Positions 12,130 to 55,669 of a stretch of 64,000 bases of DNA are shown here, piece after piece (the stretch's first letter is position 1; each line of letters starts with the position of its first letter). Source of the DNA: Hymenobacter monticola (lineage in GTDB: Bacteria > Bacteroidota > Bacteroidia > Cytophagales > Hymenobacteraceae); assembly GCF_022811645.1 (NCBI RefSeq), contig NZ_CP094534.1, forward strand, positions 4,340,001 to 4,404,000. Reading direction: 5' to 3'. Both the position numbers and the translations under genes were made by a program. The notes beneath the pieces are model-generated. The model ran no database searches. It saw only the letters and a list, made by a program, of their open reading frames with translations, and had not been told where the DNA came from.

Positions 12130-13965
12130 CTACCGAACCGGCAGCAGCAGGCAGGCCGTGGTGCCATGCCCCGGCGTGCTCTCGAGACAGAAGCGGCCGC
12201 GCTGGCGCTGCGCCAACTGGCGCACCAGGGGCAGGCCCAGCCCGGTGCCGCGCTGTCCGGGCAAGCGCAGGGCCAATCCGGTGGGCGTGTCGTTGGTTTG
12301 CAGGGCCGCGAGTTGGGCTGCGCTTAGGCCTGGCCCGGCGTCAGTCACACGCAACTCCAAACAGCCACCGGCCAACTGGGCGGCCAGCGTAATGACCGAG
12401 CCGGCCGGGGCCACCTTCAGGGCATTGCCCAACAGGTTGCGCAGTTGGGCGCGCACCATGTTATGGTCGGCCCAAAGGGGCGGCAGGTCGGGGGCCACGG
12501 TCACGGTCACCGTTACTTGCTGGGCACGGGCCTCCGCAGCGTATAGGGAAGCCAGCTCGCGGAGCAGGCGGGAGGCGTCCAAGGCCTCGGGCTGGTAGGC
12601 CAGCTCGCCGCTCTGGCTGGCGGCCCAGTGCAACAGGTTGTCGACGAGAGACGTGAGCTGGCTGGTGGTCTGGCGCACTTCGGTGGTCACCTCGTCGAGG
12701 ACGGCGGGGTTGTTTATACCGGCCCGGCGGTAGTAATCAAGCAGTGTGGCCAGCCCGCCCAAAGCGGCCAGTGGGCTGCGCAGGTCGTGGCCGATGACGG
12801 AATATAGCCGGTCCTGGGTGGCACGAGCGGCGCGCAGGCGACGGGCCAGCCGACGCATTTCCAGCAAGGCATAGGCCGTGCCCCCCAGCAGCAAGGCCAG
12901 CAAAGCCGCCGCCGTCCAGGCCAACTGCTTTTGGCGCTGTTGCTGGGCACTTATGGTCCGCAACTGGTCGATTTGCACCTCCTTCCTTTCGGTCTGGTAG
13001 CGCGTTTCCATGTCGGCCAGGGCCGCGTATTGCTGCGTGGCCCGCAGCGAGTCGGTAAGAAGCTCGAGCTGCTCGCGGGCGTGGTAGGCCGGCTGCCAGC
13101 GGCCCAGGGCAGCCAGCGCGTCAGCTTTGAGCTGCAACACCTCGCGCAGCTTCACCCGGTTGCGGGCGGCACGGTAGCTGGCTTCCATATCGGGCAGTAG
13201 GGCGGTGGCCGAAGCCGGCTCGCCGGCTCGCAAAAGATAGTCGGCCAGCTTGAGGCGTTGCGCGGCGCGGGCGGCCGGCGCGTCGAGCGAGTCGGTGCAG
13301 GCCAGGGCTTGCGGCACCCAGGCGGGGTTGGACGGGCGGGAAGTGGCGCGGGCCAGCCAGTGGCGCAGCACCAGTTCTTCGGCTCGCCATTGGTAATACA
13401 AAAAATGCCGGCGCAAAGCTGGAGTGGGCGCCCGGCGGGCTACTTCGGCCAGCCCCACGGCGGCGCGGCGCAGGGCCGCCTCGGCCACGGCGGGCTGGCC
13501 GGTGCGCAGGCTCACTTCGGCCACGCGCAGGCGCAGGCTGGCCTCAATGCCGGCCAGGCGCCAGTAGGCTGTGTCGCGCTGCCGGGCGCGTTGCGCGTTG
13601 GCAATGCCGCCGGCCAACAAGCCCAGCAGCTCGGGGGCCCGGCGCTGCCGCAGCAGCAGGGCGTGGGTGTAGCCGAGGGTTTCGGCCAGGGAGACGGCGG
13701 CCATGGTAGGCTCGGTGGCTTGCAGGGCACGCGTAGTGCCACGGGCAGCGGTGTAGTAAAGTTCGGCGCGCTCGTCGTTGCCTTGTTCTTCGTAGGCTTC
13801 GCCCAGCAGCTCGTTGAGCCAAATCAGGCCGGCGTAGTTGTCGAGCTGCTGGTAGTAGCGCAGGCCCTGGGCGTAGGCACGCACGGCCCCGGCGTAGCTG
13901 CCGCGGCGGCGCAGGGCCAGCCCGGCATTGGCGTAGGCACCGGCCAGGGCCACCCCCACATTCAC
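12130..13965 (-). CDS. TPR histidine kinase, C-terminal portion (separated from its N-terminus by an in-frame stop)
   Basis: 611 aa from a GTG. TPR repeats occupy the first ~300 residues (for example RRRGSYAGAVRAYAQGLRYY), followed by a coiled coil, one membrane helix (LAWTAAALLALLLGGTAYAL), a HisKA domain with phosphoacceptor His393 in GHDLRSPLAALG, and an HATPase_c domain with LRNLLGNALK, VTDAGPGLS and GTGLGLPLVRQLAQ. It would autophosphorylate and pass phosphate to a regulator, probably the LytTR protein 0.7 kb upstream. The reading frame continues unbroken upstream as ITALKASGFPPNARKRQ, straight into a TAA at 14038-14040, beyond which the signal peptide and first TPRs continue in the same frame. 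From the GTG alone the protein has no signal peptide, so its TPR sensor would be on the wrong side of the membrane. Treat it as half of a disrupted gene unless the stop is a sequencing error. Confidence 0.85.
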   Translation of the reverse strand: MNVGVALAGAYANAGLALRRRGSYAGAVRAYAQGLRYYQQLDNYAGLIWLNELLGEAYEEQGNDERAELYYTAARGTTRALQATEPTMAAVSLAETLGYTHALLLRQRRAPELLGLLAGGIANAQRARQRDTAYWRLAGIEASLRLRVAEVSLRTGQPAVAEAALRRAAVGLAEVARRAPTPALRRHFLYYQWRAEELVLRHWLARATSRPSNPAWVPQALACTDSLDAPAARAAQRLKLADYLLRAGEPASATALLPDMEASYRAARNRVKLREVLQLKADALAALGRWQPAYHAREQLELLTDSLRATQQYAALADMETRYQTERKEVQIDQLRTISAQQQRQKQLAWTAAALLALLLGGTAYALLEMRRLARRLRAARATQDRLYSVIGHDLRSPLAALGGLATLLDYYRRAGINNPAVLDEVTTEVRQTTSQLTSLVDNLLHWAASQSGELAYQPEALDASRLLRELASLYAAEARAQQVTVTVTVAPDLPPLWADHNMVRAQLRNLLGNALKVAPAGSVITLAAQLAGGCLELRVTDAGPGLSAAQLAALQTNDTPTGLALRLPGQRGTGLGLPLVRQLAQRQRGRFCLESTPGHGTTACLLLPVR

Positions 13966-14037
13966 GCTGTCGCCGAGGGCCAGCGGCTGGCGCTTGCGGG
14001 CATTAGGGGGAAAGCCGCTGGCCTTGAGGGCCGTGAT

Positions 14038-14550
14038 TTAGCGCCGGTGGCAGGCCAAGGCGCTATCGGTCGCCTGCTGCGTCCAGTAGTAGCTGCTGAG
14101 GCGGTGGTTCAGCTCGGCCGCGTCGAGGGAATAGCCGGGCACCCGGCGGTTGGCGGCCAGCGCCCGGCGCAGGTAGGCCAGGCCGGAGTCGGGCTGCTGC
14201 TGCACAGCCGCTGCGGTGGCCAAGCGCGCCCACACCACGAAGGACAGCGGCTCGGGCGCCCACAGGCGGCGCCGGGCCCAAAGCCATTCCCGCTCCCGGC
14301 GAAAGGCGGCCATGTTTTCGGCTTCGGTACGGCGCTCGACGTCCTTGGTGGGCTGGGCCGCGGCCCAGCTGGCCGCTTCGCCCGCCGATACCTCGCGCAG
14401 CAAGGCCCGCACCCGGGTCAGGCTGGCCTGGTGGGCCGGGCTGCCGGGCTGGGCCCGCACCGACCACCCGCTGAACATCAGTCCCAGTAAAAGCCCCCAG
14501 CCGGCCAACCGGCCGAAGTGCCTCGCGCGCAGCCGAGAATAGAAGCCCAT
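14038..14550 (-). CDS. N-terminal fragment of the TPR histidine kinase (ends at in-frame TAA)
   Basis: 170 aa from the ATG at 14550; an ATG at 14571 is also possible. It begins with a signal peptide/anchor (FGRLAGWGLLLGLMFSGWSVRAQ) followed by helical TPR-like sequence (DSGLAYLRRALAANRRVPGY, RLSSYYWTQQATDSALACHRR). The stop interrupts a TPR helix, and the following kinase gene resumes in the same frame without a shift, so together 12130-14550 matches one periplasmic-TPR histidine kinase of ~806 residues. A CATCTTTG sequence at 14684-14691, one base from the -7 consensus, could be the promoter. As it stands this fragment has no catalytic domain. Confidence 0.7.
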   Translation of the reverse strand: MGFYSRLRARHFGRLAGWGLLLGLMFSGWSVRAQPGSPAHQASLTRVRALLREVSAGEAASWAAAQPTKDVERRTEAENMAAFRREREWLWARRRLWAPEPLSFVVWARLATAAAVQQQPDSGLAYLRRALAANRRVPGYSLDAAELNHRLSSYYWTQQATDSALACHRR

Positions 14551-14697
14551 TTCCAACGCGCAGCTAGTCATGGAACACCGATACGCCTGGGCACGGGCGG
14601 TTGTCCCCCATCCGTTGCCGGCGTGCTTCGCTGGTCCCCCGAGCAATTGTCGCAAATGGCTTTCCCTTTCGGCCCATAAAGTGCAAAGATGGGCCAC

Positions 14698-17419: not shown

Positions 17420-18355
17420 ATGAAAAAAACTTCAGCAACTTTCGTTCTGGCGGTCCTGGCCGGGCTGGGCGCGGCCGCCTGGGCCTTCCATCAAGGCGAT
17501 GCCCGGCAGCAAGCCCTGCTGCACAAAATCGGGGCGGTGGGTGCCCAGCTGGCGGCGGGCAGCGCGCAGCGCGCCCGGGGCAACACCACTACCCTACGCG
17601 GCCTGTCCGTGGCCGTGGCCCGGAACGGCTACCAGCCCCGTGATGTGGCGGTGCTGAAGCAGAGCGAACAAATTCTCGGGCGCAGCCGCAGCCTGGCCGA
17701 CACCCTGCGCCAATGGCAACGGGCGGTGCGCGCCGACGCCCACGAGTCTGCCAGCGGCGCGCTGCAGCGCCCGCAGGCCGCCACGCCCCTGGCGGCCGCG
17801 CGCGCCAAGCAGCTGGCCCAGTCACTGAACCGCTATGCGCGCTTTATTCAAGCCTACGTGCCCGGTGCCCCGATTTTGGCGCCGCCGCAATCGCCACGGC
17901 CCGAAACCACCTGGCTCTACCGCGAGGGTGCGCCGCTGGCCGCCGCCCTGGGCAGCCTCGCGCGCCTCGAAGCAGAAACGCACCGGTTAGCCCAGGATGC
18001 GCTCACCCAGCAGGCGCAAAAAATAGGGTCTTGCTGCATCTTCTTCGATAAAATTGGGGCGCTGGCGGTGGCTGTTTCCAACACCGTGGCGCCGGGCGGC
18101 ACCTACGAGGCCCGGCTGTTTATGACCCACAGCGCCTCAAGCCAGATACCCAAAATGAGCGTAGAGGGGCGCCCTGTGCACGTGGGGTATGACGGGCGGG
18201 GCACGGTGGAGTTTCGGGTGCCCCCGCTGCGCCCCGGCCAGCCCGACACGGTACGGGCCCACTGGCGCGGCCACATCACCGTTCGCAGCTACCCCACCGA
18301 CAGCACCATTCAACTCGACGTTCCTTACTACATCGTTAAGCCCCGCAGCCGATGA
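17420..18355 (+). CDS. GldM/PorM-like single-pass membrane protein (copy 1)
   Basis: 311 aa from the ATG at 17420. One N-terminal membrane helix (MKKTSATFVLAVLAGLGAAA) is followed by a long helical periplasmic region rich in Ala/Gln/Arg, then an Ig-like segment (SNTVAPGGTYEARLFMTHSA, MSVEGRPVHVGYDGRGTVEF, then RVPPLRPGQPDTV) ending LDVPYYIVKPRSR. This order matches the start of GldM/PorM, the trans-envelope shaft of the T9SS motor (helix, D1 bundle, D2 Ig-like domain), but the protein is much shorter than the ~500-residue GldM and lacks D3-D4. Its stop overlaps the next gene's ATG (ATGA). No GldL/PorL partner is nearby. Similarity was judged by eye, so the family call is moderate. Confidence 0.62.
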   Translation: MKKTSATFVLAVLAGLGAAAWAFHQGDARQQALLHKIGAVGAQLAAGSAQRARGNTTTLRGLSVAVARNGYQPRDVAVLKQSEQILGRSRSLADTLRQWQRAVRADAHESASGALQRPQAATPLAAARAKQLAQSLNRYARFIQAYVPGAPILAPPQSPRPETTWLYREGAPLAAALGSLARLEAETHRLAQDALTQQAQKIGSCCIFFDKIGALAVAVSNTVAPGGTYEARLFMTHSASSQIPKMSVEGRPVHVGYDGRGTVEFRVPPLRPGQPDTVRAHWRGHITVRSYPTDSTIQLDVPYYIVKPRSR

Positions 18356-43925: not shown

Positions 43926-43963
43926 TACCGGCAGAGCGGCATTGTTCTAAAAAGTTCATCCTG

Positions 43964-44045
43964 CCCGGATGGCGGAACCGGTAGACGCGTTGGTCTCAAA
44001 CACCAATACCGCAAGGTGTGCCGGTTCGACTCCGGCTCCGGGTAC
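43964..44045 (+). tRNA. tRNA-Leu (CAA anticodon)
   Basis: 82-nt cloverleaf. The acceptor stem is GCCCGGA with TCCGGGT and discriminator A44045. The D-arm includes GGTAGACGC. The anticodon stem-loop TTGGTCTCAAACACCAA gives anticodon CAA (reads UUG, Leu). A long variable arm (TACCGCAAGGTGT) marks a class II tRNA, and the T-arm is GCCGGTTCGACTCCGGC. The 3' CCA is not encoded. An intrinsic terminator follows at once. Confidence 0.95.
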
Positions 44046-44050
44046 ATTAA

Positions 44051-44092
44051 AACGCCAGAAATAAGGTCTGTTGGCCTCGTTTCTGGCGTTTT
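44051..44092 (+). terminator. Intrinsic terminator of tRNA-Leu
   Basis: A 12-bp perfect stem (44051-44062 with 44081-44092) overlaps a T-rich tail, 6 nt after the tRNA. Confidence 0.9.
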
Positions 44093-44300
44093 TGTTTGCG
44101 GCACCTAGAGCCGGAGTGGAAACGGTACCTTTTGCAAAGCGTGTCAGCCTGGAAAGCTTAAACTGGATTCCTGAAAAGCTAGTGTTCATAGGGTTAAAAC
44201 ATTGCTGCGTCGACATCGCAGACCAGCATGATTAATTCCGGTGATGCAACGTTTGGTGGCTGCTGTCGGTCAGCAGATTATTCCACCAAATCATTGCTTT

Positions 44301-44681
44301 ATGAAACGGAAATCGAACCGCCCTGCCACTTGGCTACTCGGCTGCTTAAGCGCCCTGGCTGCCACGGGCTGCATCTGCGGCCCCGACAATGATAATCTGC
44401 CCGAACCCACGCAGCCGCAACAGGAGCAGGTGGCGGTGCGCTACGCCCAGACCCAATGTGCCGACCGTTGGGGCCAGGCCCAGGGACCTCAGCAGCTCGT
44501 GGTGGTGGCAGGGGCTTACTTTGCTCAGCGAGGCCTTACCTTGAACCAGCCCCAAGCCAGTGCTACGGGCCAGGCTTCCGTGTGCAACGCCTGCAACTGC
44601 CCCACCGGATTGGTGCTGGAAGCAACTGTCAGCCCCGCCGACTTGGCCGCCGTGCTCGCTTTGGGCTTTACCAAGAAATAG
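44301..44681 (+). CDS. Small Cys-rich lipoprotein
   Basis: 126 aa from the ATG at 44301. Lipoprotein signal peptide MKRKSNRPATWLLGCLSALA, lipobox LAATGC, then an acidic linker (CGPDNDNLPEPTQPQQEQVA). The mature part has an N-terminal helical segment and a cysteine cluster VCNACNCPTGLVLEATVSPA that could form disulfides in the periplasm or bind metal. The sequence A-V-R-Y-A-Q-T-Q-C-A-D-R-W-G is distinctive. I do not recognise a family. Confidence 0.7.
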   Translation: MKRKSNRPATWLLGCLSALAATGCICGPDNDNLPEPTQPQQEQVAVRYAQTQCADRWGQAQGPQQLVVVAGAYFAQRGLTLNQPQASATGQASVCNACNCPTGLVLEATVSPADLAAVLALGFTKK

Positions 44682-44758
44682 TGCCTCTCGCTAGTCGTCG
44701 CGGGCCAACTCATTGGCACCAATGCGCCACACGGCTTTTCGTAATTACCAGAGCAACT

Positions 44759-45379
44759 CTATTGGCCCGTTTTTCGGCTCGTTAGCCAGCTCCACAGCCA
44801 CAGGAGGGGAAATAAGCAGGCAATAGCGGCCAGCCCGGCGGTTCCCAGCCAGCCGTAGCTCCCGACGCGGCGGGCTACGGCGGCCTGCATGGCGGAAGTA
44901 GCGGCCGGAAAATGCGCCGACGGCTCCACCACGGTGCGCTCCCAAAAATCGGCTTCCAGGTACCCGGCTGGGCCGCTGGCGCGCCGCACCACCAGCACCT
45001 GAGCGCCATCTTCCTGCCGGAGGCCTTCGTAATCCACGAACAAAACCCGCTCACCGCCGGCAGGCACGGGCAACTCGGCTTCCTGGGCGGCGGGCCAGGC
45101 CGGGAATTGATACGTGCTATATTGGGGCAGCACGGAAAATTGCGCTACCCGCGCCGGGTCTTCCGCGCCGGCACCGGACGCCGCGGCTGCTCCGGCGCCC
45201 TCCCCTTCTCCGCTGAAATGAATCAGGGGCGTGACGTAAATGGTTTCGCTGCCGCGGTTGACGACGGTGTAGCGCCGCACCACCGGCAGCAGGCCCAGCG
45301 CCAGCAGCACCAGCAGCGCAGGCGCGGAGGCCAGCATACTCAGGCGCCGGTACCGGGCCACACGCGGATGTAAGGGCAT
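44759..45379 (-). CDS. Two-helix membrane protein of unknown function
   Basis: 206 aa from the ATG at 45379. One membrane helix lies near the N-terminus (LSMLASAPALLVLLALGLLP) and one near the C-terminus (LGTAGLAAIACLFPLLWLWS), with a ~130-residue periplasmic domain between: VVNRGSETIYVTPLIHFSGE, LPQYSTYQFPAWPAAQEAEL, VPAGGERVLFVDYEGL. It lies 83 bp downstream of the caspase gene at 45463 on the same strand, so it may be cotranscribed with it. No family is recognised. Confidence 0.72.
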   Translation of the reverse strand: MPLHPRVARYRRLSMLASAPALLVLLALGLLPVVRRYTVVNRGSETIYVTPLIHFSGEGEGAGAAAASGAGAEDPARVAQFSVLPQYSTYQFPAWPAAQEAELPVPAGGERVLFVDYEGLRQEDGAQVLVVRRASGPAGYLEADFWERTVVEPSAHFPAATSAMQAAVARRVGSYGWLGTAGLAAIACLFPLLWLWSWLTSRKTGQ

Positions 45380-45462
45380 TGCAGTGAAAGAGATGAATTT
45401 CCAGAACCCGACTAACGACAGCAAAATACCCGTTGCCCGGCAGGCCTTTAAGCAGAAAAATC

Positions 45463-47514
45463 CTACGGCTGCACGGGTGCGGCAATGGTAAAAACGCGGT
45501 CGAAAGTGCTCACCGATTCGGCGGGCAGGGCCTGGGTGGCGGCCCCGCCCCGCGCGCCGGGGTGGTAGCTTTCCTGCACCAATGCGGCAAACGGGTTAGT
45601 GCCCCGGCTGCTCTCGGCACTGGCGCCACGGGTCGTGACCAGGGCCCGCAGGTCGAGGGGCGTGGCGGACGCCACGATTTTGAATACTTCCTGGCCGTAG
45701 GGTGGCGAGATTTGCAGAATGTTGGGGAACACGCGCGACTGGCCGGGCTCCAGCAGGTAGTCGGCCGGGTTATCATCTGGCCGGGCCGTAGGCAGCAGCA
45801 CGTTGAGCTGGTTATCGGGCTGAATATCGAGCACGGTGAAATAAGCTTTTTTCCGGCCCGTGTTGGTCACTTTCAGTTGCAGGTAGTCGCCGGCTATGTA
45901 CACGAGGCCACCCGTGCCGTCGCTTTTGGTGGCGGGGTCTAGCACGTGGTCCAGCGCAACGTAGTCGCCGGCCTTTTTTACGGCCACGGGCACCAGTTCC
46001 AGTTCCAGCCCCAGTCCTTCGGCCTGCGTCTGGAGCCGGCGAATGAAATTGACCCGAGCCGCATCTTTGATGGCGCCCAGCAAGCCCGCCACGCGCGCGG
46101 CCGGGCCGGTGAGTTGCGCCTCGGGCTGATACACCAGCTGCTCCCTGGCAGTGAGCAATTGCGGCGGGGCCGCCTTTTTCTGCTCCACCAGTAGGTCGAC
46201 GGGGCCAGTTTCAACCAGTTTCACGAACAGTGTGTAAGGTTCCTGCCTGAGGGCGGCCAGCAGCCCTTCTTTCAGTGTGGGGTCGTCTACGGCCAGCTTC
46301 AGGTTGGCGCTAAGGTGGCCGAACGCGTGGGCCGTGACCACCACCCAAGCGTTGCGGGCGCTGCCGGTGAGTGGCGCGGTTAGCTCCACCGTGGCCGTGG
46401 TGAGCTGGCTGGCCACCACCTTGCCGGTGGCCAGGGGCTTACCGCCTTTGCCGGTTTCGGTATCGGGCGGGTAGAGGGCCACTTCGGTGCCCTCGTTGAG
46501 GTCTTGCAGGGTGCCGCCGTCAATCAGCAGACGGGTGTCGGCTAGCCAGGCGGTGGGCTTATAGTGCCGCGGCACCGGCACGGTGCGCCCCCGAAACACC
46601 TGGGCGCTGGTGCGGCCTTCCACCTGCGGCGTTTGGTTGGGGGCCGTCGATACCATTTCGGCTTTGATGCGGTCGAACAGGGTTTCGTAGGTGGGTGCGG
46701 TGGTGGCGGTGGTCAGGGCGTTGGAAAAAGCCAGGGAGAGCGAGCCCACGCCCTTGCCGTGGGGGTCGGTGGTTTCGAAATTGAGCTGGCTGGGGCTAGC
46801 CCCGAAGTAGCACACCATGGGGGCCTGAGGCCCGGCGGCGTGGCCCTCGCCGGCCCCGAACGAGCAGCCCTGCGCGCAGGCAGCGTCCTTGGGCCTGAAG
46901 CCCGGCGGCACCAGCGGCTGCTGGGTGCCCCGGGCGCGGGCCAGGCCGCGGGTGCCGGTGCCGGAGTGGCAGGCGTCGAGCACGGCCAGCACCTCGCCCT
47001 GGGGGCCCAGCCGCTGGCGCACGGCGCCCAGCAGGCTGCCCAGCTCTTCGTCGCGCAAGTGGTTTTGGCCTTCGTAGGTGCCGGGCACGAAGTAGGCCTG
47101 GGCATCGACGGGCACCAGCGCTTCGTCGAGGCCGTCGGTTTCGTCGCCGTTGTCGTCGGCCACCTGCTGGCCGTGGCCGGAGTAATGGAACACCACCACG
47201 TCGTGGGGCTTCACGCGGCCGGCCAGCGCCTTCAGCTCGGCCACGATGCCGGCCTTGGTGGCGGCGGCATCGGCCACTACGCGGATATTAGCTTCGGCAA
47301 AGCCTTGGCGCAGCAGCGCAGCCTTCACCAAGGGCACGTCGTTGGCGGAGCTGATTTGGCCCCAGCCGCTGCTTTCCGGGTAGGCGCCCACAGCCACAAT
47401 GAGGGCGTGCTTGGTGGCCCCAACCGCTGTTTTGGCCGCCGCCGGCTTGGTTTGGGCCCGGGTGCCGGGCGCCGCCAACAGCAGCGCCAGCGCGGGCAGC
47501 AAAAGTCTTTTCAT
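45463..47514 (-). CDS. Exported caspase-family protein with DUF4384-like region
   Basis: 683 aa from the ATG at 47514. Signal peptide MKRLLLPALALLLAAPGTRA, then a caspase-fold (C14) domain at ~residues 33-290: ALIVAVGAYPESSGWGQISS, catalytic His114 in FHYSGHG, and catalytic Cys182 in LDACHSG. Both dyad residues are present, so cleavage activity is plausible, and Asp-rich loop residues (DDNGDETDGLDEALVP) could bind calcium. Middle and C-terminal parts resemble DUF4384 beta-sandwiches (AYFTVLDIQPDNQLNVLLPT, DYLLEPGQSRVFP). It is transcribed divergently from the WD40-caspase gene only 68 bp away. The substrate is unknown; the signal peptide places it outside the cytoplasm. Confidence 0.9.
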   Translation of the reverse strand: MKRLLLPALALLLAAPGTRAQTKPAAAKTAVGATKHALIVAVGAYPESSGWGQISSANDVPLVKAALLRQGFAEANIRVVADAAATKAGIVAELKALAGRVKPHDVVVFHYSGHGQQVADDNGDETDGLDEALVPVDAQAYFVPGTYEGQNHLRDEELGSLLGAVRQRLGPQGEVLAVLDACHSGTGTRGLARARGTQQPLVPPGFRPKDAACAQGCSFGAGEGHAAGPQAPMVCYFGASPSQLNFETTDPHGKGVGSLSLAFSNALTTATTAPTYETLFDRIKAEMVSTAPNQTPQVEGRTSAQVFRGRTVPVPRHYKPTAWLADTRLLIDGGTLQDLNEGTEVALYPPDTETGKGGKPLATGKVVASQLTTATVELTAPLTGSARNAWVVVTAHAFGHLSANLKLAVDDPTLKEGLLAALRQEPYTLFVKLVETGPVDLLVEQKKAAPPQLLTAREQLVYQPEAQLTGPAARVAGLLGAIKDAARVNFIRRLQTQAEGLGLELELVPVAVKKAGDYVALDHVLDPATKSDGTGGLVYIAGDYLQLKVTNTGRKKAYFTVLDIQPDNQLNVLLPTARPDDNPADYLLEPGQSRVFPNILQISPPYGQEVFKIVASATPLDLRALVTTRGASAESSRGTNPFAALVQESYHPGARGGAATQALPAESVSTFDRVFTIAAPVQP

Positions 47515-47537
47515 GGCGGGTAAAGTATAGGGCAAGT

Positions 47538-47545
47538 TATATTTG
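47538..47545 (+). promoter_or_regulatory. Putative -7 element in the divergent caspase promoter
   Basis: TATATTTG matches TAnnTTTG exactly, 37 bp before the ATG of the WD40-caspase gene. The whole divergent spacer is 68 bp, so control of both caspase genes must be compact and possibly shared. Confidence 0.5.
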
Positions 47546-47582
47546 AATTGCGAAAAACCCACAACCAACCATTATTTACAAG

Positions 47583-50500
47583 ATGTCGGCTCATCGAAGC
47601 CCTCGCGTTCAGCATTTCTCCCCGTTTTACCTGCGCCGGTTGATGGGGTGGCTGGCGGTGCTGGGGCTGCTGGTACTGGGCGGGCCCGGGGCGCGGGCCC
47701 AGCGGCCCCGGCTGGTGATTCCGACGGGGCAGAGCAGCGCCATTGGCGACGTGCAGTTTTCGCCCAACGGCCACTACATGCTCACGGCGGCGCAGGACCG
47801 GTCCGTGGTGGTGTGGGACATACGCACGCGCAAGGAGGTATTCACCTTTCTGGGGCACGAGAACGGGGTTTCGGCCATGGCCGTGGCGCCCGACAACCGC
47901 ACAGTGGTCAGCGGCGACTTCCAGGGCTATGTTTTTTGGTGGGATTTGAACACCGGCCGTCTGATAAAAAAAGTGGACAATGCGCACGGCACGCTGGTAT
48001 CGGACGTTTCCTTTTCGGCCGATGGCCGGCAGCTGCTTTCGGCCGATGCCGATGGCCGGGTAGTGGAGTGGGACGTGGCCAAAAAAGCCGTAAAGTCCTC
48101 GGGCAAGTATTCCGATTTCTTCATCAGCAAGGCCGATTTCAGCCCCGATGGCCAGCATTTCTTCTGGGCCGCTTCCGATACCTCGAAGCTGGACGAGGCG
48201 CACAACTTTGAGTACGTGCCCGCCCGGGCCGATTCCCTGCAGTGGGATTTTGCGGCCTGGTATTCCAGTGCGTTGTTTGTGTCGGCGTGTTTGCTGCCCG
48301 ATGGCAAGCGGTACGCGGCCATTACCCAACAACCGGCCCAGCTCCACCTGAAAGAACTCGCCGACGGTGGCAAGACGCTGAAACTGCCTTTGCCGGGCCT
48401 GGAGCTATTTGCCGTGGAACCCTTGGACAGCATTCGCCTTGTAATTGGCGCGCGCCCCAACGCCGACAGCGTCACTTTCCTGCTGTATAACTGCCGTTCT
48501 AACCAAATAGAGCGACGCGTGAGCTGCCCGTATGCGGTGGAAATCGTGTTTGACGAAGACCACGGCGATTCGATGGTCATGGTACCGGGCCCGGGCGAGC
48601 CCCGGGTGGCCTACTGGAATACGTACGGGACGGGGGGCGTGCAGCTGGTGTCGCTGCAGACGGGGGCCATGCTACGCCTCAACCCCAAGCACGCCACGCG
48701 CATGTACGAACCCGTGGCGCGGCCCGACCAGCTGTACCTGGGCGGCAACGACGGCGAGCTGAAGCAATGGGATTTGCGCACCAACGAGCTGCGGGCGCTC
48801 AAAACCTACTCCGACGTTCCCCCCATCATCCAGGACCTGGTCGGCGACACCTTGGTTTACGCCACCAAGCGCAATCAGCTAGAATTCTGGAGCTTTCGCA
48901 ACCAGTGCCACGAATCCGCCCCACCCCTGCCCAAGGGCGCCAGCATAGCCAACATGCAGGTGCTGAGCCCGGACGGGAAATATACTGCGTGCCAGCTGCT
49001 GCCGAGCGGCGACATCCAGGTGCGGGAGCGGCGCAGCGGCCGGCTACATTGCACCTTGCCTACTGAGGCCACAACTGGCATTCCCTTCTATAAGTATCTG
49101 GCCTGGCCGAATGCGCACACGCTGGCTTGCATTACGGGCGGCACCAACGAGGTCATGGTTTTTGACCTGCGGCGCAAAGCCCGGGTGGCCTGGATTAAGG
49201 ACAGCAGCCGGGTGTCGGCCCTGGCCGGCCTGCCCGACAACACGCTGCTGACGTGCCTCTACAACGGGGTAATGAAGGTGTACCGGCTCGATACGGGCAA
49301 GGAAGTGAAACGGGTGGTGCTGCCCGGCGCGAGCGGCCGCTGCATGCGGGCCGAATACGTACCGGCCCTGCGCCGGGTGCTGGTGAGCTACGGCGACGGC
49401 CGCTTGCACTGGCTCGACCCGGCCACGCTGCAGCTTGACCGCACCTGGGCCAGCGGCCCCGCCTGGCTCGACGGCTTCGCCCTGAGCGCCGATGCCCAGC
49501 GGGCTTACACGACGGCTTACGACGGCAGCATCCGGGCCTGGGATGCACCCACCGGCCGCAATCTGGTGGGCCTCACCATCCTGCGCGACGGCGACTGGAA
49601 AGCTGCTGATTGGGTGGCCTTTACCGAGAACGGCCTTTTTGACGCCTCGCCGGCCGCCATGAAGCTGATGTACTACGTGGTGAACGACTCGACCGACGCC
49701 GAAGAGCCTTGGAAAATTGTGGAGCTGAACCAGCTCAAGCAGCGCTACTACCAGCCCGATTTGCTGCGGATTCAGCTGGGCTACAGCACCGAGCCGCTGC
49801 GCGAGGTGCCGCGCCTGGAGCAGGTCGACCTGCCGCCTAAAGTCACGGCGCAGCTCAGCGGGCCCGACCGCCGCACGCTGCGCATCGGCCTCGGCAACCG
49901 GCGCGGGGGCATTGGGGCCGTGAGCGTGTACCTGGACGACGCGGAAATAGTGGCCGACGCCCGCCCCGACCCGGCCCGCAACGCCGGCCTCGACTCGCTG
50001 CTTATCACCCTGGACCTGAAAAAATACGCCAAGCGCTTCTTCCCCGGCCGCCCCAACCAGCTGCGCGTCGTGGCCTGGAACCGCGACCATTGGATTAGCG
50101 CCGCGCCGGTTTCGGTGAGCTTCACGCCGGCCGAAACCGGCCGGCGCGGCGCCGTAGTGCAAGCCGCGCAAGCCCCGGCCAATACGCCCCCGGCCCGGCT
50201 CTACGCGCTGGTGTTCGGCACTTCCGACTACGCCGGCACCCAGGCCGACCTGCGCTTTTCGAGCAAAGACGCCGTAGATTTTGCTGCCGCCCTGCGCGGC
50301 GCGGCCGAGCGCCTCTACGGCCCGGCTGGGGTCGACGTCAGCCTGTACCACTCCGACGCGGCCCAGGCGGGCCAGCGTCCCAGTCGCGACGCCCTCCGGG
50401 CCTGGTTTGCGGGCCTGGTGGGCAAGGTGAAGCCCTGGGACGTGCTGGTGGTGTACCTGGCCGGGCACGGCGTGAGCACCGGCGGCGCGGGCGGCGACTT

Positions 50501-51377
50501 CTACTACCTCACCCAGGAAGCCGCCCGGGCCGATGCTGATGCCCTGGCCGACCCCGCCGTGCGCGCGCGCTGCGCCGTGTCGAGCCAGGAGCTCACCGGG
50601 TGGCTCAACCGGCTGGCCTGCCGCAAAAAGGTGCTCATTCTGGATGCCTGCGCCTCGGGCCGCGCGGCCGAAACCATGGCCGTGGCCGCCCGCGACGTGC
50701 CCGCCAGCCAGGTACGCGCCCTCGACCGCCTCACCGACCGCACGGGCTTCTACATCCTGTCGGGCTCGGCCGCCGATGCCGTGAGCTACGAGTCGGGCCT
50801 TTATGGCCAGGGCCTGCTCACCTACGCCTTGCTCAAAGCCCTGAAAGGCGCCGCCCTGCGCCCCGACGGCGGCGAAGAATACGCCGACGTGCAGCGCCTT
50901 TTGCAATACGCCGTGGACGAAGTGCCCCAACTGGCCCAAACCATCGGCGGCCAGCAAAAGCCCCTCTACCGCAGCCCCGACAGCCAGCAGAGCTTCGACC
51001 TGGGCCGCGTGGACGCCGCCCTCAAGGCCAGCATCACGCTGGCTGAGCCGAAGCCCGTGTTCATGGCAGCCAGCTTCCTGAGCGCCGAGCGCCTGTTCGA
51101 CGACCTGGCCCTGGCCGAGCAACTGAACGCCGAGCTGCGTGAAACCACGGCCCGGGGCAAGGCCGCCCCGCTGGTGTTCACCGAGGCCCGCAACTACCCC
51201 GGCGCCTACCGCGTGTCGGGCACCTACGAGCGGGCGGGCGCCCGGCTGCGGGTGCGCTACGTGGTGCTGCGCGGCCCCGAGCAAGTGTTGGCTCCGCAGG
51301 TGTTTGAGGCCGATTTCAGCCAACCGGCGGCGTTTGTGACGGCGTTTCTGGCGCAGTTGGTGCCGCGGCTGAAGTAA
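47583..51377 (+). CDS. Exported WD40-repeat caspase-family protein
   Basis: 1264 aa. Signal peptide/anchor near the N-terminus (LMGWLAVLGLLVLGGPGARA), then WD40-type beta-propeller units through ~residue 680 (VQFSPNGHYMLTAAQDRSVV, VWDIRTRKEVFTFLGHENGV, VSFSADGRQLLSADADGRVV). A beta-sandwich linker precedes a caspase (C14) domain with catalytic His962 in VYLAGHG and Cys1023 in LDACASG. The last ~120 residues form a separate alpha/beta domain (VFMAASFLSAERLFDDLALA, NYPGAYRVSGTYERAGARLR). Propeller and protease in one chain suggests that binding to the propeller controls cleavage. It is divergent from another exported caspase. It resembles WD40-caspase proteins of multicellular bacteria, but here it is exported. 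Confidence 0.9.
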   Translation: MSAHRSPRVQHFSPFYLRRLMGWLAVLGLLVLGGPGARAQRPRLVIPTGQSSAIGDVQFSPNGHYMLTAAQDRSVVVWDIRTRKEVFTFLGHENGVSAMAVAPDNRTVVSGDFQGYVFWWDLNTGRLIKKVDNAHGTLVSDVSFSADGRQLLSADADGRVVEWDVAKKAVKSSGKYSDFFISKADFSPDGQHFFWAASDTSKLDEAHNFEYVPARADSLQWDFAAWYSSALFVSACLLPDGKRYAAITQQPAQLHLKELADGGKTLKLPLPGLELFAVEPLDSIRLVIGARPNADSVTFLLYNCRSNQIERRVSCPYAVEIVFDEDHGDSMVMVPGPGEPRVAYWNTYGTGGVQLVSLQTGAMLRLNPKHATRMYEPVARPDQLYLGGNDGELKQWDLRTNELRALKTYSDVPPIIQDLVGDTLVYATKRNQLEFWSFRNQCHESAPPLPKGASIANMQVLSPDGKYTACQLLPSGDIQVRERRSGRLHCTLPTEATTGIPFYKYLAWPNAHTLACITGGTNEVMVFDLRRKARVAWIKDSSRVSALAGLPDNTLLTCLYNGVMKVYRLDTGKEVKRVVLPGASGRCMRAEYVPALRRVLVSYGDGRLHWLDPATLQLDRTWASGPAWLDGFALSADAQRAYTTAYDGSIRAWDAPTGRNLVGLTILRDGDWKAADWVAFTENGLFDASPAAMKLMYYVVNDSTDAEEPWKIVELNQLKQRYYQPDLLRIQLGYSTEPLREVPRLEQVDLPPKVTAQLSGPDRRTLRIGLGNRRGGIGAVSVYLDDAEIVADARPDPARNAGLDSLLITLDLKKYAKRFFPGRPNQLRVVAWNRDHWISAAPVSVSFTPAETGRRGAVVQAAQAPANTPPARLYALVFGTSDYAGTQADLRFSSKDAVDFAAALRGAAERLYGPAGVDVSLYHSDAAQAGQRPSRDALRAWFAGLVGKVKPWDVLVVYLAGHGVSTGGAGGDFYYLTQEAARADADALADPAVRARCAVSSQELTGWLNRLACRKKVLILDACASGRAAETMAVAARDVPASQVRALDRLTDRTGFYILSGSAADAVSYESGLYGQGLLTYALLKALKGAALRPDGGEEYADVQRLLQYAVDEVPQLAQTIGGQQKPLYRSPDSQQSFDLGRVDAALKASITLAEPKPVFMAASFLSAERLFDDLALAEQLNAELRETTARGKAAPLVFTEARNYPGAYRVSGTYERAGARLRVRYVVLRGPEQVLAPQVFEADFSQPAAFVTAFLAQLVPRLK

Positions 51378-51654
51378 GCGCGACCTGGGGCCATTTGGCG
51401 TGAGCCGTGCTGAATCAACCGCCGCTCATTGAGCAACGGTGGGCGGAAACGGGCTCCTTTTAGCCAGCCGGCCACGTGGGCCTTGGCCGCTCATCAAGGG
51501 CAGTCAGGAAGGATAACATACCAGAAAAATGATGTATCATAATAGTTGTTTTATTATTCATTAACCTTTTGTTTTGGGCCACTGAAGCCTTTTTTAACTT
51601 CATTTCCACTAGCCTTTTATGCGCTTGCTCCTTTTTGCTGAGAGAACCTGTCGA
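51378..51654. other. AT-rich region upstream of the delta-60 repeat gene
   Basis: About 277 bp to the preferred start (241 bp to the upstream ATG), AT-rich from ~51510. It presumably holds the promoter, but no exact TAnnTTTG was found. No hairpin with a T-tract convincingly ends the WD40-caspase gene. Confidence 0.4.
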
Positions 51655-53499
51655 ATGAAAATGTGTGGTCTGCTGACTACTAGCGTGCGTAGCGTGCTGC
51701 TAGCCATGGCCGCCGCAACGGCCGCGCAGGCGCAGGCAACGACCCCGGACGGCTTTGGCTACGACGGCGAGGTGCACGCGCTGGCTTACCAACCCGACGG
51801 CAAAGTGGTGGTGGGCGGCAAGTTTGGCAGCTACAACGGCAACGAAGCGGCTTCCGACTGCATCCTGCGCCTGAACCGCGACGGGACGCTGGACAAAACA
51901 TTCAACTACCGGGCCCTGGAATTCCGGTCGGGCGCTTCGGGCTTCGATAGCTACGGCCTGGTGAAAGCCCTGGCGCTGCAGCCCGACGGCAAAATCCTGG
52001 TGGGCGGCTACTGGCTGAACTACAACAACGGCATGGGGCCCGAGCCCCCATCGGGCCTGATGCGCCTCAACCCCGACGGCTCCCTCGACAAATCCTTCAA
52101 CCTGAAGGGGGAGGAAAACCTGACCTCTTTCGGCGGGCGGGTGAACGCGCTGGCCCTGCAGCCCGACGGCAAAATAGTGGTCGGTACCCAGCACGGCGAC
52201 GGCTCCGAGAACAACCTGGTGCGCCTCAACCCCGACGGCTCCCTCGACCGCACCTTCGCCGCCCCGAGCGAGTACGCCAGCATCAAGGGCTTCGCCCGCG
52301 CCGAATACAGCGGCGGCAAGCAGCAAGCCGACGTGAACGCCCTGCTGCTGCAGCCCGACGGCAAAATCCTGGTGGCGGGCAACTTCGACTCTTACAACGG
52401 GGACCAGGGCATTTCCCGCTGCGCGATGCGCCTCAACCGCGACGGCACCATCGACAAAACCTTTAGCTACCGGCCCAGCCGTAAAGAAGACCCGGTGCCC
52501 CAGAAGCAGGACGTGCTGGCCCTGGCGCTGCAACCCGACGGCAAAATCCTGATTGGCGGCATCTTCGTCACCTTCAACGCCATTCAGGTGATTTACGGCG
52601 AGACGCCGAAAATGCCCCACGGCGTGATGCGCCTGCTGCCCGACGGCTCCCGCGACGAGAGCTTCAACCCCAACGGTACCGGCACCAACGCGGGCGTGGC
52701 GGCGCTGGCGCTGCAGCCCGACGGGCGCGTGCTGGTGGGCGGCGGCGTGCGCAGCTACAACGGCGACGACGACACCCCCGACCAGGTGTTTCGCCTGCTG
52801 CCCAACGGCACCCTCGACAAGTCTTTCAACTACCGCGGCGCCGGCCCCAACGAGGCCGTGCAAGTGCTGGTGCGGCGCCCCAACGGCAAAATCGTCATCG
52901 GGGGCGGCTTCAGCAAATACAACGGCGCGAAAATACCCGCGGGTATGCTGGAGCTCAACGCCGACGGCTCGGCTGCGCCGTTAGCTACCGGCCTGGCCCA
53001 GCCCGACCCCGACGTGGCCGTGCAGGAAGCCTATGGCAAAAAGATTGAAGCGGGCTTCGCAAAGCTGGACCAGGCGTATGGCATCGCGGGCGTGAAGTTT
53101 GAAACGCCTGCATCCGCCATCAGCAACAAAACCCTGGCCCAGGACACCCGCGACACCAAGCTTTACACCGCCGACGACCGCCTGGCCGTGGGCCCGGTGC
53201 AGGCCTCTGCGGCCTACATCTTCTACAAGGACCGGCTGCGGGAAGTGCGACTGCGCGTGCCGGCCGAAAAAGGTCCGCAGCTGCTTGAGGCCCTGCAAAA
53301 AGCATACGGCCCGGGCCTGCCCGGCAACAAAAGCGTGACGTGGGACAGCGAAAAAGTGCACCTGAACTACTCCTACGACCCTGCCGAGGACAAATACGCC
53401 AATGCGGTGCTGTGGAGCAACGCGCTGTCGAAGGAAATGACCAAAGACATGAGGGCCGACCAGCAAGCGTTTAAAAAGAACAATACCCCGGCCAACTGA
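51655..53499 (+). CDS. Exported delta-60 repeat (beta-propeller) protein
   Basis: 614 aa from the ATG at 51655, giving signal peptide MKMCGLLTTSVRSVLLAMAA; an ATG at 51619 is an alternative. Seven delta-60 repeats of the form ALALQPDGKILVGG...MRLNPDGSLDKSFN cover ~residues 35-440, probably one seven-bladed propeller. A distinct C-terminal domain follows (EAGFAKLDQAYGIAGVKFET, KDRLREVRLRVPAEKGPQLL, KAYGPGLPGNKSVTWDSEKV) that resembles no family I recognise. No T9SS sorting domain is present. It lies 0.24-0.28 kb after the exported WD40-caspase on the same strand and upstream of the lipoprotein at 53667, so a shared role is possible. Confidence 0.85.
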   Translation: MKMCGLLTTSVRSVLLAMAAATAAQAQATTPDGFGYDGEVHALAYQPDGKVVVGGKFGSYNGNEAASDCILRLNRDGTLDKTFNYRALEFRSGASGFDSYGLVKALALQPDGKILVGGYWLNYNNGMGPEPPSGLMRLNPDGSLDKSFNLKGEENLTSFGGRVNALALQPDGKIVVGTQHGDGSENNLVRLNPDGSLDRTFAAPSEYASIKGFARAEYSGGKQQADVNALLLQPDGKILVAGNFDSYNGDQGISRCAMRLNRDGTIDKTFSYRPSRKEDPVPQKQDVLALALQPDGKILIGGIFVTFNAIQVIYGETPKMPHGVMRLLPDGSRDESFNPNGTGTNAGVAALALQPDGRVLVGGGVRSYNGDDDTPDQVFRLLPNGTLDKSFNYRGAGPNEAVQVLVRRPNGKIVIGGGFSKYNGAKIPAGMLELNADGSAAPLATGLAQPDPDVAVQEAYGKKIEAGFAKLDQAYGIAGVKFETPASAISNKTLAQDTRDTKLYTADDRLAVGPVQASAAYIFYKDRLREVRLRVPAEKGPQLLEALQKAYGPGLPGNKSVTWDSEKVHLNYSYDPAEDKYANAVLWSNALSKEMTKDMRADQQAFKKNNTPAN

Positions 53500-53666
53500 C
53501 GGGCCGGGTGGCCCACTTCGCCGGTCGCTGCGGACGCCGGGTGGCCGGAGCGAAGGCGAACTCTCGGGGCCGAAGCCGCCAACCCAGCCCGGCGGCGCTA
53601 GTTTTGTCTTTGTATTGAAAAATAAAGGTTGGGGCGGTCCGTTTGGGCAGCCCCCTTTTTTCTGTG

Positions 53667-54683
53667 ATGATGGCCCTTTTTCCTCTTTCCGGCGCGGCGC
53701 GCCCGCTGCTGCAAAGCCTGGCCGCACTGGCCCTGGGCGGCTGCATGGCCCTGCCCACCACCAACAAGCGCGCCAATGAAAAGCTGGAGCTCAAGGTGAT
53801 TGAGCGCCCCCGGCCCCTGGACATTGCCGCGGCCCTGGGGCACCAGCGCCAGGACGCAGGCCTGATGGCCTCGCGGGGCACTTCGCGCGGCTTGTTTGTG
53901 CTGGTGCCACTGTTGGCCAAGGCATTGCCAATGGCGGCCGACGGCGTGAAACAGCTCATCAAGCAGGAAGAGAAAAAATACACGGCCGAATACCAGTTTG
54001 GCAAAAGCAACCTGTATTTCTACGATGCGCCCTCCGAATCGGGCGTGCTCGACCCCCACAGCATCAAGCTGCAAGGGTTTGAGCTCACGCGCACGGCCCG
54101 CACGGGCAGCTCCGACAACCTGGCCCTGCGCCTGCGCCTCGACATGCGCGACGACGAAGCCAGCCTTTTCAATCTGCTGAACAACTCCGTGTTTCAGCTC
54201 AAAGTGGCCGACCTGGAACTGCACTACGCCAAGGCCAAAGTGCCCGCCGCACACTGGTACATGCCCTGGACGCTGATGTACCGCCAAAACGACAAAGTGA
54301 ACCTCGACGTGGCCGTGAAGCTGGCCGGCTCCTGGATTGGCGACGACGGCACGATGCACACTAACCAAGTGCTGGGCACGGCCATGCTCACGCTCCGCGA
54401 CGTGCCAATCAACAACCCCGAAGCGCTGCGGGCCTACGAGCAGCAACAGAAAGACAAGACCTTGGAGGGCTATTTCTACCTCGTGCCGCGCTCGGCGGGA
54501 AGCTACCTGAGCGCGCCCACTGCCCAAAGCGACGGCATCCGGAAAGGCTACGGGCAGGGCATCTACTCGGTGGCGGTAACGGTAGTGGAATCCGGCAAAA
54601 CCCACTTCGTTAACAAGGCCATTATCGACAACATCAACGTGCTGGACCAAGCCCCGGCGGCTATTCTGAAAACCATGAAGTAG
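53667..54683 (+). CDS. Uncharacterised lipoprotein near the caspase genes
   Basis: 338 aa from the ATG at 53667 (a TTG at 53643 and an ATG at 53670 are also possible). Signal sequence with lipobox ALALGGC near residue 26, then a mixed alpha/beta protein without repeats: YQFGKSNLYFYDAPSESGVL, IKLQGFELTRTARTGSSDNL, VADLELHYAKAKVPAAHWYM, PWTLMYRQNDKVNLDVAVKL, ending IIDNINVLDQAPAAILKTMK. A putative membrane-proximal hydrophobic stretch (LFVLVPLLAKALPMAADGV) follows the linker. I do not recognise a family. It is downstream of the delta-60 gene on the same strand, with 167 bp between. Confidence 0.7.
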   Translation: MMALFPLSGAARPLLQSLAALALGGCMALPTTNKRANEKLELKVIERPRPLDIAAALGHQRQDAGLMASRGTSRGLFVLVPLLAKALPMAADGVKQLIKQEEKKYTAEYQFGKSNLYFYDAPSESGVLDPHSIKLQGFELTRTARTGSSDNLALRLRLDMRDDEASLFNLLNNSVFQLKVADLELHYAKAKVPAAHWYMPWTLMYRQNDKVNLDVAVKLAGSWIGDDGTMHTNQVLGTAMLTLRDVPINNPEALRAYEQQQKDKTLEGYFYLVPRSAGSYLSAPTAQSDGIRKGYGQGIYSVAVTVVESGKTHFVNKAIIDNINVLDQAPAAILKTMK

Positions 54684-54751
54684 GCGCGGGAGACTTTCCC
54701 GCACGGCTTCGCGTAAGTTCACAGCCAGCGGGTGTGCGCACTGCGCCGCGC

Positions 54752-55669
54752 CTACTTGTCCATCCAAATGTCGATGAAGGGCTCTTCCTCTTCGATGCGG
54801 TAGGCCCGACGGAAAACGTTGGTGTTGGATTCAAGGGCGATGTTACCTTCGGGGTCGATGGCGATGATGCCGCGGTCGCCCTGCAGCTTGTCGGCGTACA
54901 CTTCCACGGCGCCGCGGGCGGCTTTCGCAATCGAAAGCTTCTTGTACTTGCGCAGGGCGTACACCTCATGGGCGCAGGAAGCCAGCATAATGATTTCGCC
55001 GTCGCCGGTGCAGGAGGCCGCGCATACCTCATTGTTGGCATAGCCGCCGCCGCCGTAGATGCAACTGTCACCCACGCGGCCGCGCAGCTTGCCTTCGATG
55101 CCGCCGGTGGAGGTGGCGCAGGCCAGGTTGCCATGCTGGTCGAGGGCCACGGCGCCCACCGTGTCTTTTTTGTTGGGGTGCTCCACTTCAGCTTCCTGCA
55201 AAATGTCCATCCACTCCTGCCGCTGCTCGTCGGTTTTAAAGTAGCTGGGGTCCTGCAGGGTTAGGCCTTGGGAGAGGGCGAACTCGTGGGCGCCCTCGGC
55301 CGTGAGGAAGGTGTGCTTGCACTTCTCCATCACCAGGCGGGCCAGGCGCACGGGGTTCTTAATCATTTTCAGGCCGCTCACTGCCCCGCCGCGCAGGGTG
55401 GCGCCGTCCATCAGCGAGGCTTCGGTTTCCACCTCGCCGTTGATGTTGAACATGCCGCCGCGTCCGGCATTGAACAGCTCGTTGTCTTCCATGCTCATCA
55501 CGGCGGCTTCCACGGCGTCGAGGGCCGTGCCACCGCGGTTCAGGATTTCCCAGCCGGCCTGCAGGGCAGCGTCGAGGCCCTGTTTCAGGGCTTCTTCTTT
55601 TTCGGGGGTGATGGTGGAGGGGTCGGTGTTGACGGCTCCGCTGTGGATGAGCATGACGTATTTTCCCAT
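54752..55669 (-). CDS. Isoaspartyl peptidase / type III L-asparaginase
   Basis: 305 aa Ntn-hydrolase made as a precursor that cleaves itself before the nucleophile Thr170 in HPNKKDTVGAVALD. Other motifs: IHSGAVNTDPSTI at the N-terminus, ELFNAGRGGMFNINGEVETE, SLMDGATLRGGAVSGLKMIK, the substrate-binding GRVGDSCIYGGGGYANNEVC and SCTGDGEIIM. It removes isoaspartyl residues from damaged peptides and may hydrolyse asparagine. There is no signal peptide, so cytoplasmic. It is convergent with the lipoprotein gene to its left, and a weak 6-bp hairpin (54686-54702) lies between the two. Confidence 0.94.
   Translation of the reverse strand: MGKYVMLIHSGAVNTDPSTITPEKEEALKQGLDAALQAGWEILNRGGTALDAVEAAVMSMEDNELFNAGRGGMFNINGEVETEASLMDGATLRGGAVSGLKMIKNPVRLARLVMEKCKHTFLTAEGAHEFALSQGLTLQDPSYFKTDEQRQEWMDILQEAEVEHPNKKDTVGAVALDQHGNLACATSTGGIEGKLRGRVGDSCIYGGGGYANNEVCAASCTGDGEIIMLASCAHEVYALRKYKKLSIAKAARGAVEVYADKLQGDRGIIAIDPEGNIALESNTNVFRRAYRIEEEEPFIDIWMDK

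Follow-up and report, generated by a model that had tools for sequence, protein, structure and literature searches.

Work on bacterial caspase homologues has centred on cytoplasmic enzymes of cell death or defence; orthocaspases and metacaspases cleave after Arg or Lys, and gingipain (C25) and clostripain (C11) represent caspase-fold proteases that Bacteroidota export. Animals possess two-tier caspase cascades. Here, we describe a locus in a 64,000-nt stretch of Hymenobacter monticola DNA (contig positions 4340001-4404000 of a 6.12-Mb genome; hereafter, the window), a species of the same genus as H. translucens BT175 (G117). At this locus, two unlike caspase homologues of the Peptidase_C14 (C14) family, CaspA and CaspB, are divergently encoded near a lipoprotein gene, lipo346. 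The exported caspase pair with its linked lipoprotein is a new arrangement of known families, and a smaller module than the five-gene one that an earlier note on this DNA had proposed. Genomes and fetched loci are designated below, where needed, by our G and L numbers.

The closest precedents share some of these traits. The available excerpts of a 2012 survey (PMC3501461) report probable signal peptides, WD40 fusions and CHASE2 with caspases, 20 operons that encode two or more metacaspases (Bacteroidetes being among the four groups concerned), and sigma-70 genes in Myxococcus-type metacaspase operons. These operons resemble the loci studied here in bringing several metacaspases together or in including sigma-70 genes, whereas neither an exported CaspA/WD40-caspase pairing nor a linked lipoprotein is described in those excerpts. 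DUF4384 and WD40 have also been reported with caspase homologues in the consulted parts of PMC6426788 and PMC7475262; the former records TAT-like signals in pseudo-variants, and the latter, a cyanobacterial review, places the catalytic domains in the cytosol. CaspA and CaspB resemble orthocaspases and metacaspases in their C14 domain and His/Cys dyad, and the best PDB sequence matches of CaspA are indeed metacaspases (7qp0, E 9e-11); the difference is that here two linked, unlike caspases look exported and a lipoprotein is linked to them. CHASE2 is tied to caspases in cyanobacterial CHASE2-metacaspases as well, but there this receptor domain forms part of the protease itself, for which a cytoplasmic site of action is predicted (excerpts of PMC3501461), whereas in three of the relatives examined here (L042, L065 and L080) it is a separate nearby gene, above the Pfam cut-off in all three, and the H. 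monticola genome itself yields no CHASE2 match. Craspase (Csx29 TPR-CHAT, Csx30 and CASP-sigma) and DegS/RseA are comparable in that several relatives encode a repeat-bearing caspase-clan protease beside sigma and regulator genes. However, Craspase is RNA-activated and CRISPR-linked according to the available part of PMC10028731, and the H. monticola genome has no CHAT match, a CRISPR effector not having been searched for. Among the open-access publications listed as matches, screened by titles and abstract openings, none reports an exported caspase pair like CaspA/CaspB.

Two unlike caspase homologues with intact dyads

The caspase pair and its linked lipoprotein occupy the following positions of the window, with the supporting evidence in brackets.

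45463..47514, minus strand: CaspA, caspase-fold protein with C14 and DUF4384 (Pfam, dyad residues, export-like N terminus, PDB match)
47515..47582, no strand: A+T-rich divergent spacer of 68 bp between CaspA and CaspB (base composition)
47583..51377, plus strand: CaspB, exported-looking WD40-caspase (Pfam, dyad residues, export-like N terminus)
53670..54683, plus strand: lipo346, caspase-linked lipoprotein predicted to be mostly beta (searches, alignment, model)

CaspA lies in an open reading frame (ORF) spanning 45463-47568 on the minus strand, whose likely start, the ATG at 47514, yields a protein of 683 aa with Pfam C14 at residues 35-301 (71.7 bits versus a cut-off of 21.4) and DUF4384 at 539-619. 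CaspB, of 1264 aa, combines an N-terminal WD40 part with C14 at residues 874-1131 (55.7 bits, same cut-off). The two genes diverge from a spacer with a G+C content of 38%, as compared with 63% for the window, and no other gene of the genome matches C14 at E 0.001. The CaspA dyad is made up of His114, within YSGHGQQ, and Cys182, within LDACHSG, and that of CaspB of His962 and Cys1023. The earlier note had named intact dyads at precisely these positions, a divergent caspase gene pair across 68 bp and WD40 repeats in one of its members, all of which our analysis bears out.

Conservation was scored in the best 120 of at least 598 CaspA matches and the best 120 of at least 520 CaspB matches. His and Cys are retained in 120/120 homologues of either set, as are the Asp residues at CaspA positions 130 and 180 and at CaspB position 1021. 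With a domain above cut-off and a dyad each, CaspA and CaspB are caspase homologues of the Peptidase_C14 family. By analogy with orthocaspases and metacaspases, both are expected to cleave after Arg or Lys, the conserved aspartates being what the two proteins themselves contribute to this prediction.

Export-like N termini are a trait of both families

Our home-made signal-peptide rule looks for a hydrophobic stretch preceded by a basic residue and followed by an AxA-like or lipobox site. The N termini of both CaspA and CaspB satisfy this rule, in agreement with the signal peptides that the earlier note had assigned to them, and so do those of 101/120 CaspA and 94/120 CaspB homologues in the sets above, versus 9/240 controls starting at an internal Met. 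Export-like N termini are therefore family-wide and not special to the H. monticola locus, and exported caspases as such are, as judged from these N termini, already widespread. The view that known bacterial caspases are mostly cytoplasmic was thus too strong: most homologues in the listed sets look exported, and the excerpts of PMC3501461 had already noted probable signal peptides. A lipobox-like Cys occurs in 3 of the 19 CaspA starts inspected (L008, L060 and L070). Not flagged by the rule were the two-helix membrane protein encoded downstream of CaspA, the small protein encoded at 44241 and lipo346 when translated from an early TTG.

The Por_Secre_tail domain of the type IX secretion system (TIGR04183), which is the tail type tested, was found in none of CaspA, CaspB and the delta-60 protein encoded downstream of CaspB; the amylase at 39087 served as positive control (25.0 versus a cut-off of 23 bits). 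The lack of this tail fits a periplasmic or membrane location. It also distinguishes CaspA and CaspB from gingipain and clostripain, which belong to other peptidase families.

Recurrent linkage of unlike caspases

In 8 of 14 genomes with CaspA, a second C14 gene is encoded at most 10 kb away from it, versus 0.16 expected under random scatter, and at 15 and 25 kb the count rises to 9/14 and 11/14, respectively. The null model takes scatter as uniform and genomes as independent, so the computed probabilities are too small for literal use and it is the contrast between observed and expected that counts. Without the window, linkage holds in 7, 8 and 10 of 13 genomes at 10, 15 and 25 kb. These 13 comprise G568 and G627, which entered through lipo346, G117, which entered through the genus-wide C14 scan, and 10 genomes from the order-wide CaspA search, among which the second gene is found within 10 kb in 5 and within 25 kb in 7. 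No second C14 gene was detected within 25 kb of CaspA in G264 (on a 15-kb contig), G372 and G261. The 14 genomes hold between 2 and 10 C14 matches each, and in H. monticola, H. translucens, Belliella and G403 there are exactly two, both at the locus. CaspA and its partner are divergent in the window, convergent in H. translucens and G403, and in tandem in G179, Belliella and G430. A complementary count was obtained from 29 fetched loci, 19 of which hold a full CaspA (both parts): 14 of these 19, in stretches of up to about 20 kb, carry a second C14 or CHAT gene (C14 in 8 and CHAT in 7), and 3 carry CHASE2. Collectively, these data reveal a strong, recurrent and non-random linkage of two unlike caspases.

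The partners are not all of one kind. In a tree of 70 C14 domains (80 sequences supplied, 10 removed because the domain hit was missing or short; long branches elsewhere in the tree), CaspA stands apart from the partners, which fall in separate supported groups: a 22-row CaspB group includes the partners of the window and G179, and a 4-row group holds those of H. translucens, Belliella, Cesiribacter and G403. In G456, two WD40-caspase partners close to the CaspB kind lie at ~16 and ~20 kb, in G321 a partner of the 4-row-group kind at ~9 kb, and in G447 a 377-aa caspase at ~15 kb from CaspA. Partners whose WD40 score exceeds the Pfam cut-off are those of the window, H. translucens, G403 and G321 and the two of G456; those of G179 and Belliella give weak propeller matches only, and TPR-caspases occur in G430 and G179. 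Separate C14 clades and varying gene order argue for a functional reason for the linkage and against recent duplication.

Two further loci deserve mention. The Cesiribacter partner (L080:15871-17019, 17438-18337) is a C14-only ORF preceded by a separate ORF without Pfam match, and may be broken or misassembled. A divergent caspase pair in another genome of the genus (G116; L044:7618-10674 and 12838-14619) has N termini that do not read as export-like, and may be a cytoplasmic defence-type locus.

A lipoprotein linked to the caspase pair

The lipo346 ORF was listed from a TTG at 53643; the start implied by the database protein P0121 is 53670, which is probably the real one. In the window the gene is overlapped by a longer antisense ORF. 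Strong lipo346 matches across four genome surveys, whose genome sets overlap, are confined to H. monticola, G179, G568 and G627: the surveys returned 1/120 (same genus, H. monticola only), 2/390, 3/295, and 2 strong plus 2 weak matches of 395. All four genomes with a strong match place lipo346 less than 14 kb from CaspA with a second caspase nearby, and no caspase was found in the stretches fetched around the two weak matches. The earlier suggestion of the lipoprotein as a partner is hence supported by linkage in 4/4 genomes with a strong match.

The distance between lipo346 and CaspA is 6.2 kb in H. monticola and ~13 kb in G179, where lipo346 lies ~3 kb from the TPR-caspase. In Belliella the genes are aligned on a single strand, with a propeller-type caspase between lipo346 and CaspA. 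Cesiribacter carries lipo346 and CaspA homologues at the same locus, with lipo346 divergent from and 3 kb away from an HtrA-like/CaspA/CHASE2 row and a C14 ORF at 6 kb on its other side. Four of the 19 full CaspA loci thus have lipo346: that of Cesiribacter within the stretch itself, those of G179 and Belliella within a neighbouring one, and that of the window.

An alignment of 12 lipo346 members has 33 invariant positions, and the lipobox Cys is present in 11 of the members, the G179 copy lacking it. The AlphaFold2 model is mostly beta and of middling quality (pLDDT 71.7, pTM 0.65); no confident fold match emerged, a MATH-like fold having been considered. Remote lipo346-like proteins at L086:3310-4092 and L087:9581-10516, from another family of the class and with no caspases nearby, hint at a wider lipoprotein superfamily.

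A possible protease relay in the envelope and its alternatives

Starting from the observed linkage, dyads and export-like N termini, we tentatively favour an envelope-located (periplasmic) relay of two proteases as the reading of CaspA, CaspB and lipo346, even if we hold it somewhat short of probable; the interaction, its order, the tether role, the trigger and the client are all inferred. CaspB, once exported, would bind a periplasmic signal or client through its WD40 propeller and act as the sensor or initiator caspase. It would then activate CaspA, an exported caspase of simpler build carrying metacaspase-like catalytic motifs, which would in turn cut client proteins. The mostly beta lipo346, anchored in the membrane, could tether or restrain the pair, and in some relatives the client might be a single-pass membrane protein beside a sigma factor, a neighbour that the window pair does not have. 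The caspases would in that case form a proteolytic signalling module, and the recurrent pair with its lipoprotein would, if the relay is true, put such signalling in the periplasm. Having two C14 matches genome-wide, H. monticola offers a genetically simple system for asking whether bacterial caspases act in series. A rather unlikely generalization extends the relay to an extracytoplasmic caspase cascade of Bacteroidota, in which a WD40- or TPR-caspase or a TPR-CHAT protein would be the exchangeable, initiator-like sensor, the DUF4384 caspase the executioner-like enzyme, and either a lipoprotein or a transmembrane (TM) protein plus sigma output would be added according to lineage. If true, this cascade would be a periplasmic counterpart of initiator and executioner caspases.

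The relatives point to an alternative that we consider unlikely for the window, namely site-1 type regulated proteolysis of the DegS/RseA kind, with the CaspA family cutting a single-pass anti-sigma-like membrane protein on its extramembrane part to free a sigma factor and the window copy as a derived branch whose regulator is lost or elsewhere. The TM-protein ('anti-sigma-like') profile matches in 10/19 full CaspA loci, in 8/19 together with the sigma profile, some of these matches arising by construction since both profiles were seeded partly from the same loci. Sigma70 exceeds the Pfam cut-off in 5 of the 7 candidates tested, 12 of 13 TM-protein matches among the 29 loci have one predicted TM segment, and HtrA-like genes accompany CaspA in 3/19 loci, with Trypsin_2 confirmed in both HtrA-like genes tested. 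Craspase, with its TPR-CHAT protease, Csx30 and sigma factor, provides a known parallel (available part of PMC10028731). Against this, nothing in the window matches the sigma, TM-protein, HtrA-like or CHASE2 sequences of the Cesiribacter type, the anti-sigma label is our own reading of proteins for which Pfam yields TPR at most (three tested), and among the sigma candidates that of L080 scores under the cut-off and that of L068 has no Pfam match. A sigma-factor output is therefore attractive for several relatives and unsupported by the neighbourhood of the window. Separately, the single-TM proteins just upstream of CaspA in L008, L070, L066 and L067 have in common, immediately outside the membrane, a Y-x-PE-x-x-AR-like motif that could conceivably offer an exported caspase a basic site to cut.

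A periplasmic role in defence or inter-bacterial conflict, with phage entry or a foreign effector triggering the caspases to damage the cell or the intruder, seems rather doubtful to us. In its favour are the patchy distribution of these genes (C14 in 24/120 same-genus genomes and CaspA-like proteins, at E 1e-25, in 13/390 genomes of the order, H. monticola included in both counts) and the match of CaspA to a PADLOC caspase model (E 2.3e-13); caspase-like and trypsin-like proteases also recur in described conflict systems, according to the consulted part of PMC8195603. However, of the 12 window proteins run through PADLOC, just the amylase (GlgB model) besides CaspA gave a match at the thresholds applied, both caspases score far below the cut-off of 140 bits for the EACC1-associated caspase (NF047832; 32.4 and 62.4 bits), and the neighbouring genes read as ordinary metabolism.

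It is improbable, too, that CaspA and CaspB are ordinary exported proteases for turnover or nutrient scavenging that are co-located without a joint role. The size of both families, most of whose members look export-like, and the existence of other exported families with a caspase fold, gingipains and clostripains among them, speak for this explanation; C14 linkage far above the random-scatter expectation, the separate clades of the partners and the repeat domains fused to several of them speak against it.

Neighbouring genes

Two further genes flank the caspases and lipo346 in the window.

51619..53499, plus strand: exported-looking delta-60 (DUF5122) propeller protein, a neighbour outside the conserved module (Pfam, genome counts)
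44759..45424, minus strand: two-helix membrane protein, a non-conserved neighbour 38 bp downstream of CaspA (hydrophobic segments, genome counts)

An exported module of all five genes, although these are physically adjacent in H. monticola, is largely refuted by the comparative data and most improbable, since neither the delta-60 nor the two-helix protein accompanies the caspases in the relatives compared. Linkage of the five genes in relatives, the test that the earlier note had itself proposed, fails on these two members, and what persists of the co-conserved module is the caspase-caspase (8/14 at 10 kb) and lipoprotein-caspase (4/4) linkage. The delta-60 proteins are a common family, with matches in 93/120 same-genus genomes and 15 in H. 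monticola alone; the window copy goes unmatched in the stretches fetched around the caspases of H. translucens, G179, Belliella and Cesiribacter, and its C-terminal part (52984-53496) matched only self copies by blastp among the fetched loci. Its assignment to delta-60 holds, but the seven repeats ascribed to it become 6, 7 or 8 depending on library and threshold; translation perhaps starts at 51655. The two-helix protein, which has two hydrophobic segments, is adjacent to CaspA as described, yet lies outside the interval 45463..54683 to which it had been assigned, and is found in 2/120 same-genus genomes, H. monticola included.

A tRNA-Leu gene on one side and an asparaginase-like gene on the other border the caspase block (43963-54752). 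The second two-helix copy maps to a different contig of H. translucens (L082:8885-9760, G117 C11), beside genes that, from reading alone, look like sheath, tube and baseplate components of a contractile injection or phage-tail cluster.

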